DNA of 64,000 nt from Synechococcus sp. PROS-U-1 (GTDB lineage Bacteria; Cyanobacteriota; Cyanobacteriia; PCC-6307; Cyanobiaceae), in assembly GCF_014279755.1 (NCBI RefSeq), contig NZ_CP047951.1, positions 310,001-374,000 on the forward strand, read 5' to 3'. The notes beneath the pieces are model-generated. The model was not told the DNA's origin. It made no database searches and was given only the letters and a program-made list of their open reading frames with translations. Positions 4,211 through 12,631 of the stretch are shown here, piece by piece. How positions within the stretch are numbered: the first letter of the stretch is position 1; each line of letters opens with the position of its first letter. The translations under genes were made by a program, and so were the position numbers.

Positions 4211-4669
4211 ATGCTCGCCACGCTTCCCTTCAGCCTCAATTTCGCTCACCCTTTAGCGGAGTGGGGCCTGCTCGCTACTGGTGGTTGGGCTCTTTACCTG
4301 GGGATCAAGGCCAAGAAAACACGCACTGGTACGCCAGAACAACGCAAAGAGCTGGTGCCGAAAAAGTTTGCCCAGCGTCATTACCTCTGGGGCAGCATCC
4401 TCTTAGCGGTGATGACCCTCGGCACGCTGGGTGGCATGGCTGTGACCTATCTGAACAACGGCAAATTGTTCGTTGGACCGCATCTGTTGGTGGGTCTGGC
4501 CATGACAGGGATGATCGCTGTTGCCGCGTCGCTCTCACCCCTCATGCAACGGGGCAATTTGATTGCGCGCAAGGCTCATGTGGGACTGAACATGGGCATG
4601 CTGACGCTGTTCCTCTGGCAGGCCTTTAGCGGAATGGAGATCGTCAACAAGATCTGGACCAACCGCTGA
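4211..4669 (+). CDS. DUF4079 family membrane protein
   Basis: The 152-residue protein has about four hydrophobic segments (near residues 18-31, 61-81, 91-110 and 122-140). It contains the conserved cytoplasmic motif TPEQRKELVPKKFAQRHYLWG (42-60) and HLLVGLAMTG. This pattern matches the DUF4079 family of cyanobacteria and plastids, which is distantly cytochrome-b561-like. Histidines at about 57, 91 and 123 could bind haem, but that is inference. A stem-loop lies immediately downstream. A decayed partial copy of this gene follows at 4817-5029. Confidence 0.85.
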   Translation: MLATLPFSLNFAHPLAEWGLLATGGWALYLGIKAKKTRTGTPEQRKELVPKKFAQRHYLWGSILLAVMTLGTLGGMAVTYLNNGKLFVGPHLLVGLAMTGMIAVAASLSPLMQRGNLIARKAHVGLNMGMLTLFLWQAFSGMEIVNKIWTNR

Positions 4670-4678
4670 AGATCCTTC

Positions 4679-4708
4679 AGAAGGCTGCCCACTGACGGGG
4701 TGGGCAGC
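4679..4708 (+). repeat. 30-bp direct repeat, copy 1 (partner at 9181-9210)
   Basis: The sequence beginning AGAAGGCTGCCC and ending GGGTGGGCAGC occurs here and at 9181-9210. The copies are in the same orientation and differ by one base (A here, G there, at position 13). Each copy folds into a strong hairpin. The two copies bracket the AT-rich accessory stretch plus thiD. Confidence 0.85.
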
Positions 4709-4715
4709 CCTTTAA
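4679..4715 (+). terminator. Stem-loop after the DUF4079 gene; copy 1 of a 30-bp repeat
   Basis: A perfect 10-bp stem (GGCTGCCCAC / GTGGGCAGCC) closes a 7-base loop (TGACGGG) nine bases after the DUF4079 stop and is followed by CTTTAA. The T-run is short, so termination may be partial. Bases 4679-4708 match 9181-9210 at 29 of 30 positions in the same orientation. Confidence 0.7.
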
Positions 4716-4816
4716 CGCGGTGGCCTGGACAACCCTCCACGTGGAGGGCGAGTTGCACGCCATCTGTTCCTAGGACCCTGGATTGTTGAAGTAAGGCTGA
4801 GACAAGCTGCGCTGGG

Positions 4817-5029
4817 ATGTCAGAACAGCGCAAAGAGCTGCTGCCTAAAAAGTTTGGCCAGCGCCATGACCCCTGGGGCAAGCTCTGGTTGGTGCTGATG
4901 ATGAGAGGGATAGTCGCCATTACCGCGTCGCTGGATCCCTTGATGCACTCATCAAGGTGTTCGCACGAAGGCCGTTGCTGTAGAAGCTGTTCTAGAACCT
5001 GGATGTCGGTCGAGGAGCTGGATCAGTAA
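4817..5029 (+). pseudogene. Decayed partial duplicate of the DUF4079 gene
   Basis: The frame begins MSEQRKELLPKKFGQRH and continues PWGKLWLVLM. This aligns with residues 42-68 of the intact neighbour (PEQRKELVPKKFAQRH, LWGSILLAVM). It then jumps to RGIVAITASLDPLM, which aligns with residues 99-112 (TGMIAVAASLSPLM). About 29 codons are missing in frame, and the N-terminal helix and everything after the match are lost or unrecognisable. DNA identity is also visible, for example GCAAAGAGCTG and CGCGTCGCT. I infer a tandem duplication followed by deletion and decay. A short expressed peptide cannot be excluded. Confidence 0.8.
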
Positions 5030-5062
5030 CAGCGTTGAGATGATTCGGTTTTGTTCTGGCCA

Positions 5063-5200
5063 CTAACGATAAAAATCCTCTCCCTTGAGTGGTGTTTTTC
5101 GTTCGTTGCTTTTGATGTAAAAAAATGCAGTTGCTGCAACGACTGCGAGTGGTATTGCAGTAAACAAAAGAAGCGCAATCGCCGTATAGTCTTGATGCAT
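5063..5200 (-). CDS. Small single-pass membrane protein, 45 residues
   Basis: On the minus strand an ATG at 5198-5200 opens a 45-codon frame ending in TAG. The protein begins MHQDYTAIALLLF and has one clear membrane helix (about residues 6-29) and a charged tail (SNERKTPLKGEDFYR). Its layout, a short N-terminus, a Pro inside the helix and a charged C-terminus, recalls small photosystem subunits such as PsbM. I do not recognise it as any named one. A TATAAT hexamer lies about 20 bases upstream (minus-strand reading of 5220-5225). The ribosome site is weak. The surrounding DNA is AT-rich. Confidence 0.5.
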   Translation of the reverse strand: MHQDYTAIALLLFTAIPLAVVAATAFFYIKSNERKTPLKGEDFYR

Positions 5201-5431
5201 GATGCAAGAAATTTTTGATATTATATTTTCTTGAGCCAAGGATTAATTACTGAATTTTACTTCGCTTTGATTGAAAAGGAATGTCCTTGATTATCTTTTG
5301 ATGCAAGTTGTGTTTTATTCGTTCTATTGTTTGTGCTCTCCTGAGGGATGCGTGTATGCGCATCATTTCGGGGACTTCTCTGTATCAATGTTAAATGCTG
5401 TCATTGATTTAATCGAAATCATGAAGAATCT

Positions 5432-5641
5432 ATGAAAAGCACTTTGAAGACCATCATGTTCTCTACCTTTTATATTTTAATGTGTGGAGGAGCTCTTGCT
5501 CAAGCTGTTCATGAGTCGACCAAGCAGCCGATTGGATTGTTGGTCTTTGCGATGGTGATGACTCCAATCATTGTTTCTATTTGTGGTGGGCTGCCTGTTG
5601 ATTTTATGAAAGTAAATTTCAACAATGCACGTGATAACTGA
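5432..5641 (+). CDS. Hypothetical small membrane or secreted protein, 69 residues
   Basis: The protein starts with a basic tip and a hydrophobic run ending in GGALAQA (about residue 25). This looks like a signal peptide or a first membrane helix. A second hydrophobic segment (IGLLVFAMVMTPIIVSICGG, about 33-52) follows. I do not recognise a family. The gene sits alone in AT-rich DNA, reads towards the convergent flavodoxin gene and has only a weak purine run (GAAG) before its ATG. The composition, with many A/T-ending codons, differs from the core genes around the stretch. Confidence 0.45.
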   Translation: MKSTLKTIMFSTFYILMCGGALAQAVHESTKQPIGLLVFAMVMTPIIVSICGGLPVDFMKVNFNNARDN

Positions 5642-5709
5642 TCTGCAGTAGGTCGGCTAAATTCTAATTTAGCTTTGGTTTAATTGTGCCATGTATTTCG
5701 TTTTCCAGG

Positions 5710-6228
5710 TTATAATGTATTGGCTTCTTGAGTGATTGCCCTTGACCAGGCCTGTAGGCGGTCATCAGTTTTTTCTGATTCATTGTCTTCGTCAATGGGT
5801 AATCCACAAAACATTCCATCGATAACACTTTTGGACTCATCAAAAATATATTGGTCAGTTGATACATGGCCAATCATTCGGCCTCCTGCAGATTTGAATG
5901 ATTTGTAAAGTTCTTCCATGGCATCACAGAAATATTTGCTGAATGCAGCTGAGTCTCCCAGGCCTACTATCGCAATGGGTGTGTCTTTTAGCGATAGATG
6001 GGGAATGTTGTCAATGTGTTCGTCCCATGATGTGCCTGATCTTTTAATATCAGAGCCAGTGTTCCAGGTTGGTGTGCAGCAAATTAAAGCTTCAGACTCT
6101 TCTAGTTCTTTTGTAAAATCTATTCTGTCAAGATCTTTTAATTCTGATCCTGGCAATAATATCCTTAGCCTTTCTGCTATGTCTTCTGTATGGCCGGTTG
6201 CTGATGCATAAACGATAGTAAAGCGCAT
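5710..6228 (-). CDS. Long-chain flavodoxin (IsiB-like)
   Basis: Starting at the ATG at 6226-6228, the 172-residue product begins MRFTIVYASATGHTEDIAE, the FMN phosphate-binding loop. It carries the second FMN loop TPTWNTGSD and GLGDSAAFSKYFCDAM. The inserted long-chain segment runs STDQYIFDESKSVIDGMFCGLPIDEDN, as in cyanobacterial IsiB, which replaces ferredoxin in iron-poor cells. It is clearly diverged from a typical IsiB: GDSAAFSKYF stands where family members often have GDQxxYxxNF. An upstream in-frame start would add 18 residues with no family support. The gene is in AT-rich DNA. I saw no convincing Fur box. Confidence 0.88.
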   Translation of the reverse strand: MRFTIVYASATGHTEDIAERLRILLPGSELKDLDRIDFTKELEESEALICCTPTWNTGSDIKRSGTSWDEHIDNIPHLSLKDTPIAIVGLGDSAAFSKYFCDAMEELYKSFKSAGGRMIGHVSTDQYIFDESKSVIDGMFCGLPIDEDNESEKTDDRLQAWSRAITQEANTL

Positions 6229-6251
6229 GAAGCAAATCTCAAGTGAATGGA

Positions 6252-6446
6252 TTATGAACAATTTTGAGATGAGACCAAGCACTTATTTGACGTGTCGATG
6301 TCATGCAAGCTACTGATGCGTCTGGTTTCTAAGTCTATTCCTATTGGTGGGATCAAGAATATGTATTCGTGTATGCTTGATATCAAGCTGGACCCTTGAA
6401 GCGCTAATTTGCTTTTCTTTTTTTGTTCATATTTGAGAGTATTCAT
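6252..6446 (-). CDS. Possible small protein upstream of flavodoxin, 64 residues
   Basis: This frame opens with ATG at 6444-6446, preceded by a good GGGAG ribosome site about 9 bases upstream, in the same direction as the flavodoxin gene. The protein (MNTLKYEQKKKSKLALQGSS...) has a basic N-terminus, a modest hydrophobic stretch (YIFLIPPIGID) and no recognisable family. It ends 23 bases before the flavodoxin ATG, so the two could be co-transcribed. The frame is short and AT-rich, and an open frame of this length could arise by chance. Confidence 0.28.
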   Translation of the reverse strand: MNTLKYEQKKKSKLALQGSSLISSIHEYIFLIPPIGIDLETRRISSLHDIDTSNKCLVSSQNCS

Positions 6447-6757
6447 TTGCTTGCGCTCCCATTTCTTTAAATTTTGTTGGCCGTCTAAATGATTGTGTTC
6501 CGCGACTTTGCCTCTAGTAGCTGTAATTTATTCCATCAGTCTTGCTGTGGTAATCCTGCTAAAAGATGTGGAGTTTATCTGCACTCTTGTGCTGATTTTT
6601 GTGGTGGATTTTTCCGATTTGCTGTTTATAGAAATGCTCAGCTCTGTGGTTTTTGATGATAAATCGGATTGCATTGTCGATGAATCTTGGGCCCTTGGGC
6701 TCAAGGCGTCGCCGGGGGCCGTTGCTGGACCATCGGTGATGCATTCCAAATAACTGG
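6447..6757. other. AT-rich stretch with no supported gene
   Basis: Both strands contain short open frames here, including hydrophobic and Ser/Thr-rich ones. They overlap each other, use weak starts such as TTG, lack ribosome sites and resemble nothing I know. The region lies between two minus-strand genes. It may be decayed coding sequence or leader. Confidence 0.4.
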
Positions 6758-7159
6758 TCAGGTATCACCAAGGCCGTTGAACAGCTCTTTGTGAACAACA
6801 AATGTGTGGTACAGCACTGTGCCTGATTCGGGTTCGAGTCGTTCTCCGTCTGCGTTGAAGCCAATACTGCACACCAGATTGCCTGTCCAGCTGATTTGAT
6901 CCGGGCTTTGACTGACAGACCATTTCAGCATTTGCTGAGCCTGTTCAGGCAGTTGCACAGCAATTTTTTCGCAGGCTTTATTGAGACGGTAAAGCGCGGG
7001 TGGTTTGGTAGGTAGTGCGAGTGATTTCCTTAGTGAAAGCTCGTCGAAGATGCCGATGTATCGAATGTGCTCAATGATCTCCAGCTCAGAGGGGTCCAAA
7101 CCCGCATTCTCGAGGGCAAGCTCAAAGGCTTCAACGTCCAGGCGGGGCCGCTTGATCAT
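6758..7159 (-). CDS. Hypothetical protein, 133 residues
   Basis: I choose the ATG at 7157-7159 because AGGGA lies about 8 bases upstream, which is better support than the longer in-frame start at 7219. The product begins MIKRPRLDVEAFELALENAG and appears soluble. The N-terminal half is helical and charged and contains LDPSELEIIEHIRYIGIFDE; the C-terminal half looks beta-rich (WTGNLVCSIGFNADGERL). I know no domain for it. It lies in the AT-richer accessory stretch but its own composition is closer to the core. No neighbour suggests a function. Confidence 0.65.
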   Translation of the reverse strand: MIKRPRLDVEAFELALENAGLDPSELEIIEHIRYIGIFDELSLRKSLALPTKPPALYRLNKACEKIAVQLPEQAQQMLKWSVSQSPDQISWTGNLVCSIGFNADGERLEPESGTVLYHTFVVHKELFNGLGDT

Positions 7160-7697
7160 GTCGTTTTTCCCTATGGTTTCAGTCGTTGAGGTGACGCATT
7201 TAGTAAGCAGTACGTTCAATAAGTGCTGCGGCTGAGGAAGGTCATAATGCTGATAATTGCGAAATAAAGTGTTGATGTTTCATGTTCGTGCTTTTGCATT
7301 TTAACTGTTCCAAAGAGCACGCCCTGAAGTCCAGTGTCCATTCTTGCATCGGATTCTTGGTTTGTAAGGTTGATCAGCAATAAGCCTGGCCTAACGTGCT
7401 GAGTGTAAGCGGCAATAATGCTCGAAAGGCTCTAGCCTAAGTGTAGTAATTGGAAGGATGTTTCAATGGTTTGACAAGGCTTTTGGCGTTCAAAAGTTTC
7501 TTAACTATGGATTAATTTGAAGTCATAGCTCAGGGCAATCTTGCGGATCGCAAGCTAACGCTTATTCGCTTGAATTTAAAGTGGTATCAGCCATGTCTCA
7601 TGCCTTCGCATGTATGGCGTAAGTTGATGTCCATGGTTTCTGTGATCTTTCCTTTTTGGTAAGTTTTGCGCATGCCTAGACTTGAACGGGTGCTTTC
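7160..7697. other. Gene-free stretch of about 540 bp
   Basis: No open frame with a plausible start and product is visible on either strand between the two hypothetical genes. The DNA is AT-rich and lacks long repeats or tRNA-like folds. It could hold leaders, a small RNA or decayed sequence; I cannot assign anything. Confidence 0.4.
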
Positions 7698-8129
7698 TCA
7701 GTTGCTGATTCTGCGTAATAAATCTGGTTGCCGTTGCATTTCTGTTTTGATTTCGTCAAGCATGTGTCTGCTTTTTGTATAAACAATGACCTCTAAATTC
7801 TTTACAGCCTCGTGTATTTTCCAGAGGCCAACTTGTATTTCAGAGCGTGCATATGTTACCTGCCATGCGTCTGGGTGAGGTCGGCCGACTTGCTTCACCG
7901 TGATCAGGGTCCAAAAAGAGTTGCGGCGCTGCATCGCTTGGTAGCAGTGGCACACCGCGCCATCGGCTTGCTTTGTTCTCTCGAAGCCGATCTCCTGTAA
8001 TTGATCGCTCCAGTCAGGCATTTTTGAAGGCATGAGCTGTCGACTCCCAACGCGTTCAGTTTGCCAGCTCGTCTGAACGTAGTAGTTAGACTCGGGATCG
8101 GCAAACGCTATAAGATTTAATTGCCCCAT
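7698..8129 (-). CDS. Hypothetical protein, 143 residues
   Basis: The frame runs from an ATG at 8127-8129 and encodes a soluble protein beginning MGQLNLIAFADPESNYYV. Mixed beta and helical segments follow (WQVTYARSEIQVGLWKIHEA, then a charged helix ending RQPDLLRRISN). I recognise no domain. AAGGGA directly abuts the ATG, which is too close for an ideal ribosome site, so the start is uncertain. It is the last gene of the accessory stretch before thiD, which is divergent from it with about 210 bp between. Confidence 0.6.
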   Translation of the reverse strand: MGQLNLIAFADPESNYYVQTSWQTERVGSRQLMPSKMPDWSDQLQEIGFERTKQADGAVCHCYQAMQRRNSFWTLITVKQVGRPHPDAWQVTYARSEIQVGLWKIHEAVKNLEVIVYTKSRHMLDEIKTEMQRQPDLLRRISN

Positions 8130-8343
8130 TCCCTTGCTCAGTTTCTGTTACGGCGATCAGTATTCGTTTTTGCCCTATGGCCGATCAAATTGAGCGAGAT
8201 GCTGGGCTCAAAGTCGCTAGAATTTTCGTTTTTTGCCGAAATGGCGAGTAGGTTTTACAAGTGAGCAAGGGCTGTTGCTCATGGTGAAACTGATCTTTGC
8301 CTAATGTGAATCGGCTGATGTCTGATTCGTTGCAGGTTGATTA

Positions 8344-9156
8344 ATGATGAAAAGCCCGGGGCGCTGCTTGTCGGCGCTGACGATTGGTGGAAGCGATTCT
8401 GCTGGTGGTGCTGGTATCCAGGCAGACATCAAAACCTTTCAGCACTTCGATGTTCACGGTGCATCCGTGATCACGTGTGTCACGGCTCAAAACAGTCTTG
8501 GTGTCACGCATGTTGAACCCCTCAGTTGTCATTCGGTTGCTCAGCAGATCGAGGCTGTTTGTTCGGATCTCGTTATTCCTGCGTTGAAAACGGGGATGTT
8601 GTACTCGTCGGAGCTCGTGGAGGCTGTCGCTGATGCATTGCGATTGTTCGAGGGTTCCACCGTGGTTGATCCGGTAATGGTGTCTCGAGCGGGCTCAAGG
8701 CTGTTGAGTGGAGATGCCGTCGCGAAGTATCAACAACTTCTGTTCCCGCTCGCCACGTTGTTGACGCCCAATCTGCACGAGGCTGCTCTTCTCACGGGCC
8801 GCGAGATCAATGGCAAGGTCGATGTAGAGCATGCGGCTCAGTGCTTGTTGGAGCGTGGTCCCCAGGCCGTGCTGATTAAAGGTGGCGGTTTGCCTGAGTT
8901 GGCAGGTCAGGATTTTTTTTGTTCTGGTGATGCTCCTGGCGTCTGGCGATCACAACCCGCAATTACGACTCCCCACACGCACGGGACGGGGTGCACCCTC
9001 AGTGCGGCAATCACGGCTGCGCTCGTTCTTGGTCGACCACTCGCAGATGCCGTGATTCAGGCCAAGATCTATGTCAACCAAGCATTGCTCCAGGCGGTTG
9101 CCTTTGGACATGGACCTGGGTGTGTTGGCCACAGGATCGAACCTCTGAGCCCGTGA
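8344..9156 (+). CDS. thiD: Hydroxymethylpyrimidine / phosphomethylpyrimidine kinase
   Basis: ThiD phosphorylates HMP and HMP-phosphate in the pyrimidine branch of thiamin synthesis. The 270-residue protein is of usual length. It has the N-terminal substrate loop TIGGSDSAGGAGIQAD (13-28), the central MLYS and VVDPVMVS segments, KGGG (about 179-182), and the C-terminal anion-hole motif HTHGTGCTLS (211-220) with Cys217. Two adjacent ATG codons (8344 and 8347) are possible starts. There is no thiE or thiC neighbour and no TPP-riboswitch-like leader. The end faces the DUF1997 gene, and a shared hairpin lies in that junction. Confidence 0.95.
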   Translation: MMKSPGRCLSALTIGGSDSAGGAGIQADIKTFQHFDVHGASVITCVTAQNSLGVTHVEPLSCHSVAQQIEAVCSDLVIPALKTGMLYSSELVEAVADALRLFEGSTVVDPVMVSRAGSRLLSGDAVAKYQQLLFPLATLLTPNLHEAALLTGREINGKVDVEHAAQCLLERGPQAVLIKGGGLPELAGQDFFCSGDAPGVWRSQPAITTPHTHGTGCTLSAAITAALVLGRPLADAVIQAKIYVNQALLQAVAFGHGPGCVGHRIEPLSP

Positions 9157-9178
9157 GCTAAGCCCCATCCCTGCTGCT

Positions 9179-9787
9179 CTAGAAGGCTGCCCGCTGACGG
9201 GGTGGGCAGCTCAGTCCACGGCTGGCATGGAAATCCTCTTGGACCTTCCAGGTCAGCCGACGCGAGATCTGACGGACGATCTGCTTCAGCAGATGGTCAC
9301 CGCTGCTCTGGACCAACTGATCCGGAAGCATCGCAATCACCTTGGGCAGCCGGATCCAGACTTTGAGATCCAGATCCCACTGCACTGAAGTGTTCTCCTG
9401 TTCGGGGATCAGTCGCATCCCAGCGCGGAAGTCGACGTCATAGTGATTCCGCAGTGCGAGGGGCTGCGGCACCGTGCGCACGGTTTCGATGCGGTAGATC
9501 CCTTCCTGTTGCGGCAGCAGCCGCAGAGCGATCGTTGGCTCCACTTCGAAGCCGAAGTTGCCGAACCGTCCCAGGGTCAGGCTGTAGGACTGCTGATCGA
9601 TAGCCTCAACCTGCATCGGACTGGCGCAACGCTTAAACCAGCTCTGATGGTCATCCAGGTAGTGCGCCACCACCGCTTGGGGAGCCAGCATGTGCATTGA
9701 ATCTTCGAAATGGCTGCTGTAGCAGCGCACCTGAGGATCGGCACCGTGAAGCTGATTGTCGGTTTCAGTGGGCGACAAGACCGTCAC
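9179..9787 (-). CDS. DUF1997 family protein
   Basis: The 202-residue soluble protein matches the DUF1997 family of cyanobacteria and plastids. It has the N-terminal SSHFEDSMHMLAPQAVVAHYLDDHQSWF segment in two parts (about 24-51), the LTLGRFGNFGFEVEP core and the DLDLKVWIRLPKVIAMLP strand. The fold is probably START-like with a lipid- or pigment-sized pocket, but no activity is proven. The last nine codons overlap repeat copy 2, so the family C-terminus may have been altered by that sequence. The start is reasonable but not supported by a strong ribosome site. The gene is convergent with thiD. Confidence 0.8.
   Translation of the reverse strand: MTVLSPTETDNQLHGADPQVRCYSSHFEDSMHMLAPQAVVAHYLDDHQSWFKRCASPMQVEAIDQQSYSLTLGRFGNFGFEVEPTIALRLLPQQEGIYRIETVRTVPQPLALRNHYDVDFRAGMRLIPEQENTSVQWDLDLKVWIRLPKVIAMLPDQLVQSSGDHLLKQIVRQISRRLTWKVQEDFHASRGLSCPPRQRAAF
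9181..9210 (+). repeat. 30-bp direct repeat, copy 2, inside the end of the DUF1997 gene
   Basis: This matches 4679-4708 at 29 of 30 bases. The hairpin (GGCTGCCCGC / GTGGGCAGCT with wobbles, loop TGACGGG) starts 26 bases after the thiD stop and could act as its terminator. On the minus strand the same bases encode the last residues of the DUF1997 protein (CPPRQRAAF plus stop). Confidence 0.8.

Positions 9788-11158: not shown

Positions 11159-12631
<1,473 letters not shown>

Follow-up and report, generated by a model that had tools for sequence, protein, structure and literature searches.

A stretch of low GC content carrying a flavodoxin gene interrupts the GC-rich chromosome of Synechococcus sp. 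PROS-U-1 (G000) within the 64,000-nucleotide segment of DNA analyzed here (the window). What is this stretch, has it arrived recently, and what might its flavodoxin do? An earlier note, made from sequence alone, proposed a small genomic island at positions 5030-8343, implied a recent foreign origin, and suggested an iron-stress function.

Extent of the insertion

The drop in base composition is real. GC content is 0.433 at 5030-8343 and 0.467 at 4710-9180, as opposed to 0.609 in the remaining window, where the lowest 3.3-kb segment outside the island has a GC content of 0.584. Tetranucleotide deviation agrees, with an island distance of 0.51 versus a median of 0.137 for 4.5-kb segments. The genes named by the earlier note, comprising a flavodoxin, two small membrane proteins, and two proteins that match no family at the cut-offs, are likewise present (Table 1). 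Its limits were too narrow: because everything between both copies of a 30-bp hairpin is missing from relatives, the insertion is wider, covering roughly 4.5 kb from ~4709 to ~9180 and including thiD and a decayed DUF4079 copy. The insertion lies between convergent core genes encoding DUF4079 (left) and DUF1997 (right) proteins. No Rfam family matched within the island at gathering scores.

Table 1. Features of the insertion and its flanks (window coordinates).
Feature	Position	Strand	Evidence
DUF4079 membrane protein, resident core gene, left flank	4211..4669	+	Pfam PF13301 152 bits; match in 31/34 same-genus genomes
Left hairpin copy, 30 bp, terminator-like	4679..4708	+	Fold -23.7 kcal/mol, z -4.2 (41 nt)
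Decayed second DUF4079 copy (pseudogene)	4732..4972	+	
a45, 45-aa single-span membrane protein	5063..5200	-	dN/dS 0.04 versus G005
d70, small membrane protein	5432..5641	+	dN/dS 0.17
F2, second long-chain flavodoxin	5710..6228	-	NF006738 (FldA) 237.1 bits, cut-off 172, full length
F2 upstream stretch, candidate promoter	6229..6342	-	Partly conserved between copies here and elsewhere
A133, 133-aa protein without family at cut-offs	6758..7159	-	Predicted fold weakly winged-helix-like
Relic of cassette DoxX-family gene (m157)	7174..7413	-	tblastn 31% over 94/157 aa, E 6e-9
B135, protein without family at cut-offs; conserved part	7698..8021	-	Open frame onward to 8129
thiD, HMP/HMP-P kinase, intact	8344..9156	+	TIGR00097 296 bits, cut-off 205
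DUF1997 protein, resident core gene, right flank	9179..9787	-	Pfam PF09366 169 bits; match in 30/34 genomes
Right hairpin copy, 30 bp	9181..9210	+	Fold -21.3 kcal/mol, z -3.7 (37 nt)

The hairpin is doubled here, with one mismatch between the copies that bracket the insertion; at empty loci a single hairpin separates DUF4079 and DUF1997. Both flanks lie on a single contig in 29 genomes of the genus; 25 of these have an empty site (7-93 bp between flank match ends), and G000, G005, G012, and G015 have a filled one. The G010 site is filled as well, spread over two contigs. Empty sites and deviating composition bear out the designation as an accessory island. The synteny comparison proposed in the earlier note, which held that uniform gene content in all relatives would speak for vertical inheritance, found no such uniformity. 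Two hairpin copies were detected in G000 (30/30 and 29/30) and G005 (28/30 each), one copy in each of 15 empty loci (L064-L078; 24-30 of 30), and one weaker copy (20-23 of 30) in the 10 empty loci that are more distant. The insertion point and the hairpin doubling are the same in G000 and G005, and G005 too retains a trace of the decayed DUF4079. Origin of this pseudogene from a G012-like lineage was rejected, as it aligns better to the DUF4079 of the window's own clade. We infer that the doubled hairpin and the decayed DUF4079 record an event by which a second DUF4079 allele, linked to the cassette, came to lie next to the resident copy.

A second flavodoxin under purifying selection

The earlier note described the flavodoxin, here termed F2, as diverged. 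F2 is in fact not strongly diverged, matching the model of IsiB-type long-chain flavodoxins over its full length and above cut-off (Table 1). The gene is intact, and its dN/dS of 0.049 between G000 and G005 indicates purifying selection; alignment to G005 extends upstream to position 6342. F2 is 59% identical to the other flavodoxin of the genome, from which it differs in clade (support 96/93) and in neighborhood. The other gene resides 1.17 Mb away, adjoining ferritin and solute-binding-protein genes, with a pyridine-nucleotide-disulphide oxidoreductase gene close by.

Several features would fit a decaying remnant without present function, namely the relics of DUF4079, DoxX (m157), and o56 genes, the long non-coding stretches, and a thiD broken in the sister genome. 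thiD is accessory in the genus, with a match at E ≤ 1e-20 in 4 others of 34 genomes searched, and is interrupted in G005. B135, d70, and thiD are fast-evolving or broken in the sister genome, and part of the stretch may thus be decaying. However, F2, a45, and A133 have dN/dS values of 0.04-0.09 (G000 versus G005) and F2 retains the conserved flavodoxin columns, which speaks against a functionless remnant, a reading that is quite improbable.

a45 has a small core paralogue, and matches to one type or the other were found in 150 of 299 genomes of the order; PDB and Pfam searches with the core paralogue gave no match beyond chance. d70 is found in the F2 cassettes of all mapped relatives except G022, G027, and the G010 contig. 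Predicted structures of A133 (pLDDT 80) and B135 (pLDDT 66) had no PDB match at E ≤ 0.001, and A133, B135, and d70 had no PHROGs match at E ≤ 0.01. The weak hits of A133 (E > 2), mostly to winged-helix regulators, were not counted as evidence.

A low-GC photosynthesis cassette in relatives

In relatives, the same genes lie within a low-GC cassette of ~10 kb that also encodes a PsaL paralogue (142 bits), PsbY (62 bits, cut-off 48), 2Fe-2S and 4Fe-4S ferredoxins (Fer2, 78 bits; Fer4_13, 54 bits), a CpcL-type membrane-anchored phycobilisome linker (PBS linker, 116 bits), and small membrane proteins. At the locus of the insertion, G012 and G015 carry these genes in matching order. Reduced versions occupy this locus in G165, G192, G168, G245, AG-673-F03, and an ERR598949 bin. 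Some relatives carry the cassette without F2, indicating that F2 is not obligatory.

The source genome has a second piece of its own at G000:C1:2122-2124 kb, encoding a PBS linker (PF00427, 117 bits) and a 4Fe-4S ferredoxin (Fer4_13, 56 bits); the cassette is thus split in this genome. No att repeat was found at the tmRNA adjoining the second piece. In addition to its PBS linker domain, the 2.12-Mb linker has a C-terminal hydrophobic helix (mean hydropathy 2.67 over 19 residues). Cassette linkers share both elements with CpcL, the photosystem I-associated rod linker, and match CpcL chains in PDB (8hfq, E 8e-41), although CpcG-type rod-core linkers score as high or higher. The cassette linker is a paralogue, as all 4 genomes checked also have a more typical helix-bearing copy (L208-L211). 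Two CpcL-type linker matches occurred in 12/12 genomes encoding F2 versus 20/299 genomes of the order overall, a comparison whose hypergeometric figures ignore shared descent.

The cassette is found at the purH-ispH site (in other lineages too) and at other places; one genome, G029, carries it in an element bounded by tRNA-Val. That element has a 47-bp repeat of the 3' end of tRNA-Val and carries integrase-like and primase genes. G031 and G019 have a nearby tRNA and repeats of 20 and 17 bp, respectively; neither the integrase nor the primase of G029 has a match there. G013, with no tRNA on its 8.8-kb contig, was placed with the tRNA-element copies by gene order and tree only. Elements integrated at tRNA genes of picocyanobacteria are known as 'tycheposons'. 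The G029 copy resembles these in its tRNA repeat, integrase-like gene, and primase gene, whereas the window copy differs: no tRNA lies in the first 16 kb of the window, and the window has no match to the G029 integrase, the G029 primase, or the L201 integrase.

The strong composition contrast, the patchy distribution, and the G029 element could all mean that the stretch was acquired horizontally and recently from a low-GC donor and has yet to ameliorate in composition. Against this, GC3 of F2 is 0.26-0.49 in 17/17 copies measured, in each host and locus, compared with 0.50-0.82 in the hosts' core genes. F2 and ileS trees also agree for G012, G005, G000, and the G013/G019 group, and the insertion features common to G000 and G005 point the same way. 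Because F2 and host trees agree locally and F2 is AT-rich in all copies measured, low GC is no sign of recent arrival, contrary to the implication of the earlier note. No near-identical F2 from an unrelated low-GC genome was found in the genome contigs searched, the best matches outside marine Synechococcus being 32-43% identical. We consider recent acquisition unlikely. As to gain versus loss at this locus, the more distant empty sites favor gain and the F2 tree favors old residence, so the empty state is not necessarily ancestral.

Cyanophage cargo combines low GC with photosynthesis genes, and the island resembles it in kind. Derivation from phage auxiliary photosynthesis genes was nonetheless rejected and is highly improbable: IMG/VR viral contigs contain no close relative of F2, the CpcL-type linker, A133, or PsaL, and searches of GenBank phages returned only 4 hits to F2, all below 35% identity, and none to the linker.

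Iron stress or photosystem I electron outflow

Flavodoxins of the FldA/IsiB family replace ferredoxin under iron limitation in other organisms. The island might accordingly be an iron-stress island in which F2, induced by iron limitation, would substitute for ferredoxin like classical IsiB. This role is possible and the strongest of the competing explanations, although we lean against it. In its favor, 12/12 genomes encoding F2 (≥65% identity) among 299 of the order also encode the other flavodoxin; in a same-genus set (n=20), F2 occurs in 8/13 genomes with the other flavodoxin versus 0/7 without (one-sided p 0.01, uncorrected for descent). However, the window island has no iron gene, and the ferritin and solute-binding-protein neighbors belong to the other flavodoxin. 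No Fur-box signal was detected at F2, but the same test found none at the other flavodoxin either and so has no power. Moreover, cassettes place iron-sulfur ferredoxins beside F2, which is odd for pure iron sparing.

Published work mentions similar flavodoxins. As indirect support for an iron role, CRD1 strains of iron-depleted waters are described as sharing 3 specific HLIPs and an additional copy of IsiB (PMC7522525). The purH-ispH version in G165, G192, and G245 may correspond to this second IsiB. F2 itself is not restricted to CRD1, being found also in G029, G031, and others. Syn-eCAG_011, listed as flavodoxin plus thioredoxin reductase in the relevant passage of PMC10119275, corresponds to the other flavodoxin with its nearby pyridine-nucleotide-disulphide oxidoreductase gene. 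The pertinent passages of these two papers mention neither the cassette and where it lies nor its genes for linker, PsaL, and PsbY, and our literature search found no description of the cassette.

The anatomy of the insertion, its empty sites, the gene content and order common to relatives, and purifying selection on F2 are consistent with a different explanation, which we hold to be somewhat probable: the stretch would be a pared-down version of the low-GC accessory cassette of photosynthesis genes, with F2 as an alternative photosystem I acceptor. The best functional reading we can infer is that of a module for electron outflow and antenna function at photosystem I. F2 would accept photosystem I electrons and, working with the small membrane proteins and linker of the cassette, would raise or re-route electron outflow; it would act in addition to the other flavodoxin. 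The window itself encodes no PsaL, PsbY, CpcL-type linker, or ferredoxins, and the functional reading leans on relatives and the second locus.

More speculatively, the cassette could be a mobile, phycobilisome-based counterpart of isiAB. Where isiAB pairs IsiA with flavodoxin, these strains would enlarge and re-route photosystem I by means of a CpcL-type linker antenna, a PsaL variant, additional ferredoxins, and the second flavodoxin. Such a cassette would move between the fixed purH-ispH site, tRNA-bounded elements, and other places, and the window would hold its electron-carrier half. No Pfam or NCBIfam match to isiA was found in ORFs neighboring F2. This proposal is tentative, and we regard it as doubtful.

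Marine Synechococcus are major primary producers that differ in their handling of light and iron. F2 is AT-rich in all hosts measured, a warning against reading low GC as proof of recent acquisition. If the cassette does serve photosystem I, relocatable spare photosystem parts, split yet co-occurring, would offer a concrete genetic explanation of why photosystem I function differs between strains.

Reduced photosynthesis cassette at the purH-ispH site

In the 2.58-Mb single-contig genome of Synechococcus sp. PROS-U-1 (G000), a low-GC island lies between the core genes DUF4079 and DUF1997; the window spans G000:C1:310001-374000. The drop in base composition that the earlier note had described here was borne out: GC is 0.433 over 5030-8343 versus 0.609 outside the island (at least 0.584 in other 3.3-kb windows). 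Tetranucleotide usage deviates as well, with a distance of 0.51 for the island and a median of 0.137 for 4.5-kb windows. Gene and family-model searches also recovered the genes named in that stretch. The island retains two small membrane proteins (a45, d70), a second flavodoxin (F2), two proteins without known family (A133, B135) and thiD, together with relics of DoxX and o56 and a decayed DUF4079 copy.

Coordinates of features in and beyond the window
Feature	Location	Strand
Left hairpin copy (30 bp)	window 4679-4708	
Island	window ~4709-9180	
Decayed DUF4079	window 4732-4972	
F2	window 5710-6228	-
Motif ~TTGCATGAC-N8-GTCAAATAAG, upstream of F2	window 6290-6320	
thiD	window 8344-9156	
Right hairpin copy (30 bp)	window 9181-9210	
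More typical CpcL-like copy	G000, 518 kb	
39-aa membrane protein	G000:C1:1954598-1954717 (L199)	
Second cassette piece	G000:C1:2122-2124 kb	
Exact 23-bp repeat, GACCATTGGGCGCTG hairpin type, bracketing second piece	L201:8609-8631 and 12282-12304	
XerC/D-like tyrosine recombinase gene	L201:15465-16816	

At the same locus, relatives G012 and G015 carry a cassette of ~10 kb in the order a45, b72, PsbY, d70, flavodoxin, 2Fe-2S ferredoxin, several small membrane proteins, SemiSWEET-like protein, A133, DoxX protein, B135, thiD, PsaL paralogue, PBS linker with a C-terminal hydrophobic helix, and 4Fe-4S ferredoxin. A cassette spread over two contigs is present in G010. Reduced cassettes occupy the purH-ispH site in G165, G192, G168, G245, AG-673-F03 and an ERR598949 bin. 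Related gene sets reside at other places in G029, G013, G019, G031, G022, G020 and G023 and, lacking F2, in G006 and G014; some of these sets include a high-light-inducible-like gene (21.0 bits, just below the Pfam cut-off of 22.3). Within the genus thiD is accessory: of 34 genomes, 5 have a match (E<=1e-20), which adjoins a cassette each time (the window copy; L028, L059); it is intact in G000 and interrupted in G005. The DUF1997 gene adjoining the large cassette is disrupted by stops in G010, G012 and G015 (L060, L061 and L062, near ispH).

Insertion boundaries

Of the 29 same-genus genomes with both genes on one contig, 25 have a DUF4079-DUF1997 gap of 7-93 bp, measured from match end to match end, and four (G000, G005, G012, G015) have one of 4.2-10 kb; flank data were lacking for 4 of 34, namely G002, G018, G022 (left gene unmatched) and G030 (right gene unmatched). 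When 15 empty loci (L064-L078) were aligned to the window, the alignments ended at 4707-4708 and resumed at 9175-9181. These loci hold a single hairpin copy sharing 24-30 of 30 positions with the right copy, and a further ten empty loci, more distant and spread over nine genomes, each have one copy that matches less well (20-23 of 30). The hairpin is doubled in both G000 and G005, and a search of G000 with its 28-base core (<=3 mismatches) matched just the two copies bracketing the island. Four filled loci of another genus (L195-L198) and L102 have a single weak copy (19-21 of 30), confined to the DUF1997 side; none scoring >18 of 30 was found in L060-L062. Because of this distribution, the left hairpin copy and decayed DUF4079 seem to have been added in the G000/G005 line alone, where a cassette-bearing DUF4079 allele may have been placed next to the resident DUF4079.

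Second cassette piece and possible mobility

The second cassette piece in G000 encodes the linker, the 4Fe-4S ferredoxin and two more cassette genes, with local GC of 0.40-0.53; linker and ferredoxin are 62% and 84% identical to their G012 counterparts. G005 is split likewise, second piece and island being on different contigs. The C-terminal hydrophobic helix also occurs in the more typical CpcL-like copies (the 518-kb copy and three others checked). In a sample of fetched loci biased towards cassettes, the hairpin-like repeat with core GACCATTGGGCGCTG occurs five times in L079, three times each in L081 and L082, and twice each in L080 and L201; it was not found anywhere in the window. The recombinase gene adjoins a predicted tmRNA ~4 kb from the second piece, and an att repeat sought at this tmRNA was not found.

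In G029, 47 bp from the 3' end of tRNA-Val are perfectly repeated and enclose a 14.7-kb segment, which contains the cassette and encodes primases (PHROGs E 1e-17) and a weak integrase match (PHROGs E 6e-6; Pfam 16.2 bits, below the cut-off of 27.1). A tRNA is close to the cassette in G031 and G019, with repeats of 20 and 17 bp, respectively; searches there for the G029 integrase or primase gave no match. No tRNA was found on the G013 cassette contig, and neither a tRNA nor a G029-type integrase or primase at the window locus.

History and predicted function of F2

Phylogenetically, the F2 copies group in a single clade, with the other flavodoxin of the genus outside it (support 96/93). The purH-ispH copies require two location changes on this tree, and those from G013, G019, G029 and G031 group together as one clade (100/98) adjacent to G000 and G005. 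The ileS tree likewise places G000 and G005 just outside a group containing G013 and G019 (95/95). Given this agreement, the pattern would be explained better by long residence combined with relocation, or by loss at the purH-ispH site, than by recent arrival, although empty sites in more distant relatives point the other way. GC3 of F2 is 0.26-0.49 in all 17 copies versus 0.50-0.82 for the core genes purH, ispH and DUF4079. Between G000 and G005, island genes have dS values of 0.79-1.30, compared with 0.29-0.68 in the three flanking genes measured; the higher island values could stem from age, from low codon bias or from differing donors. The motif upstream of F2 is shared in part by purH-ispH copies and copies elsewhere.

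For the same genome pair, dN/dS is 0.049 for F2, 0.040 for a45, 0.090 for A133, 0.174 for d70 and 0.257 for B135. At >=65% identity, F2 occurs in 12 of 299 genomes sampled from the order. By counts that ignore shared descent, all 12 also have the other flavodoxin and two CpcL-type linker matches (E<=1e-60; 20/299 overall, the second match being assigned to a cassette in 16 of the 20), and 11 have cassette-type a45 (13/299 overall), the exception being the fragmented assembly G013. The 39-aa membrane protein is a paralogue of cassette a45; among the 299 genomes, 150 gave a match to one or other type, and most of the listed genomes of 1.5-1.9 Mb gave none. Within ~5 kb of the other flavodoxin in G000 are a solute-binding protein, ferritin, 2Fe-2S ferredoxin, pyridine-nucleotide-disulphide oxidoreductase and Crp-type regulator.

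In earlier work, CRD1 is reported to have an extra copy of IsiB together with three HLIPs specific to it (PMC7522525), and an eCAG comprising flavodoxin and thioredoxin reductase is described (PMC10119275). No description of the cassette was found in the passages and listings searched, which included PMC2441476, PMC10119275, PMC7522525 and PMC10545762 and few subscription papers. We infer that F2 may accept electrons from photosystem I as an additional carrier, linked to the membrane and antenna parts of the cassette.
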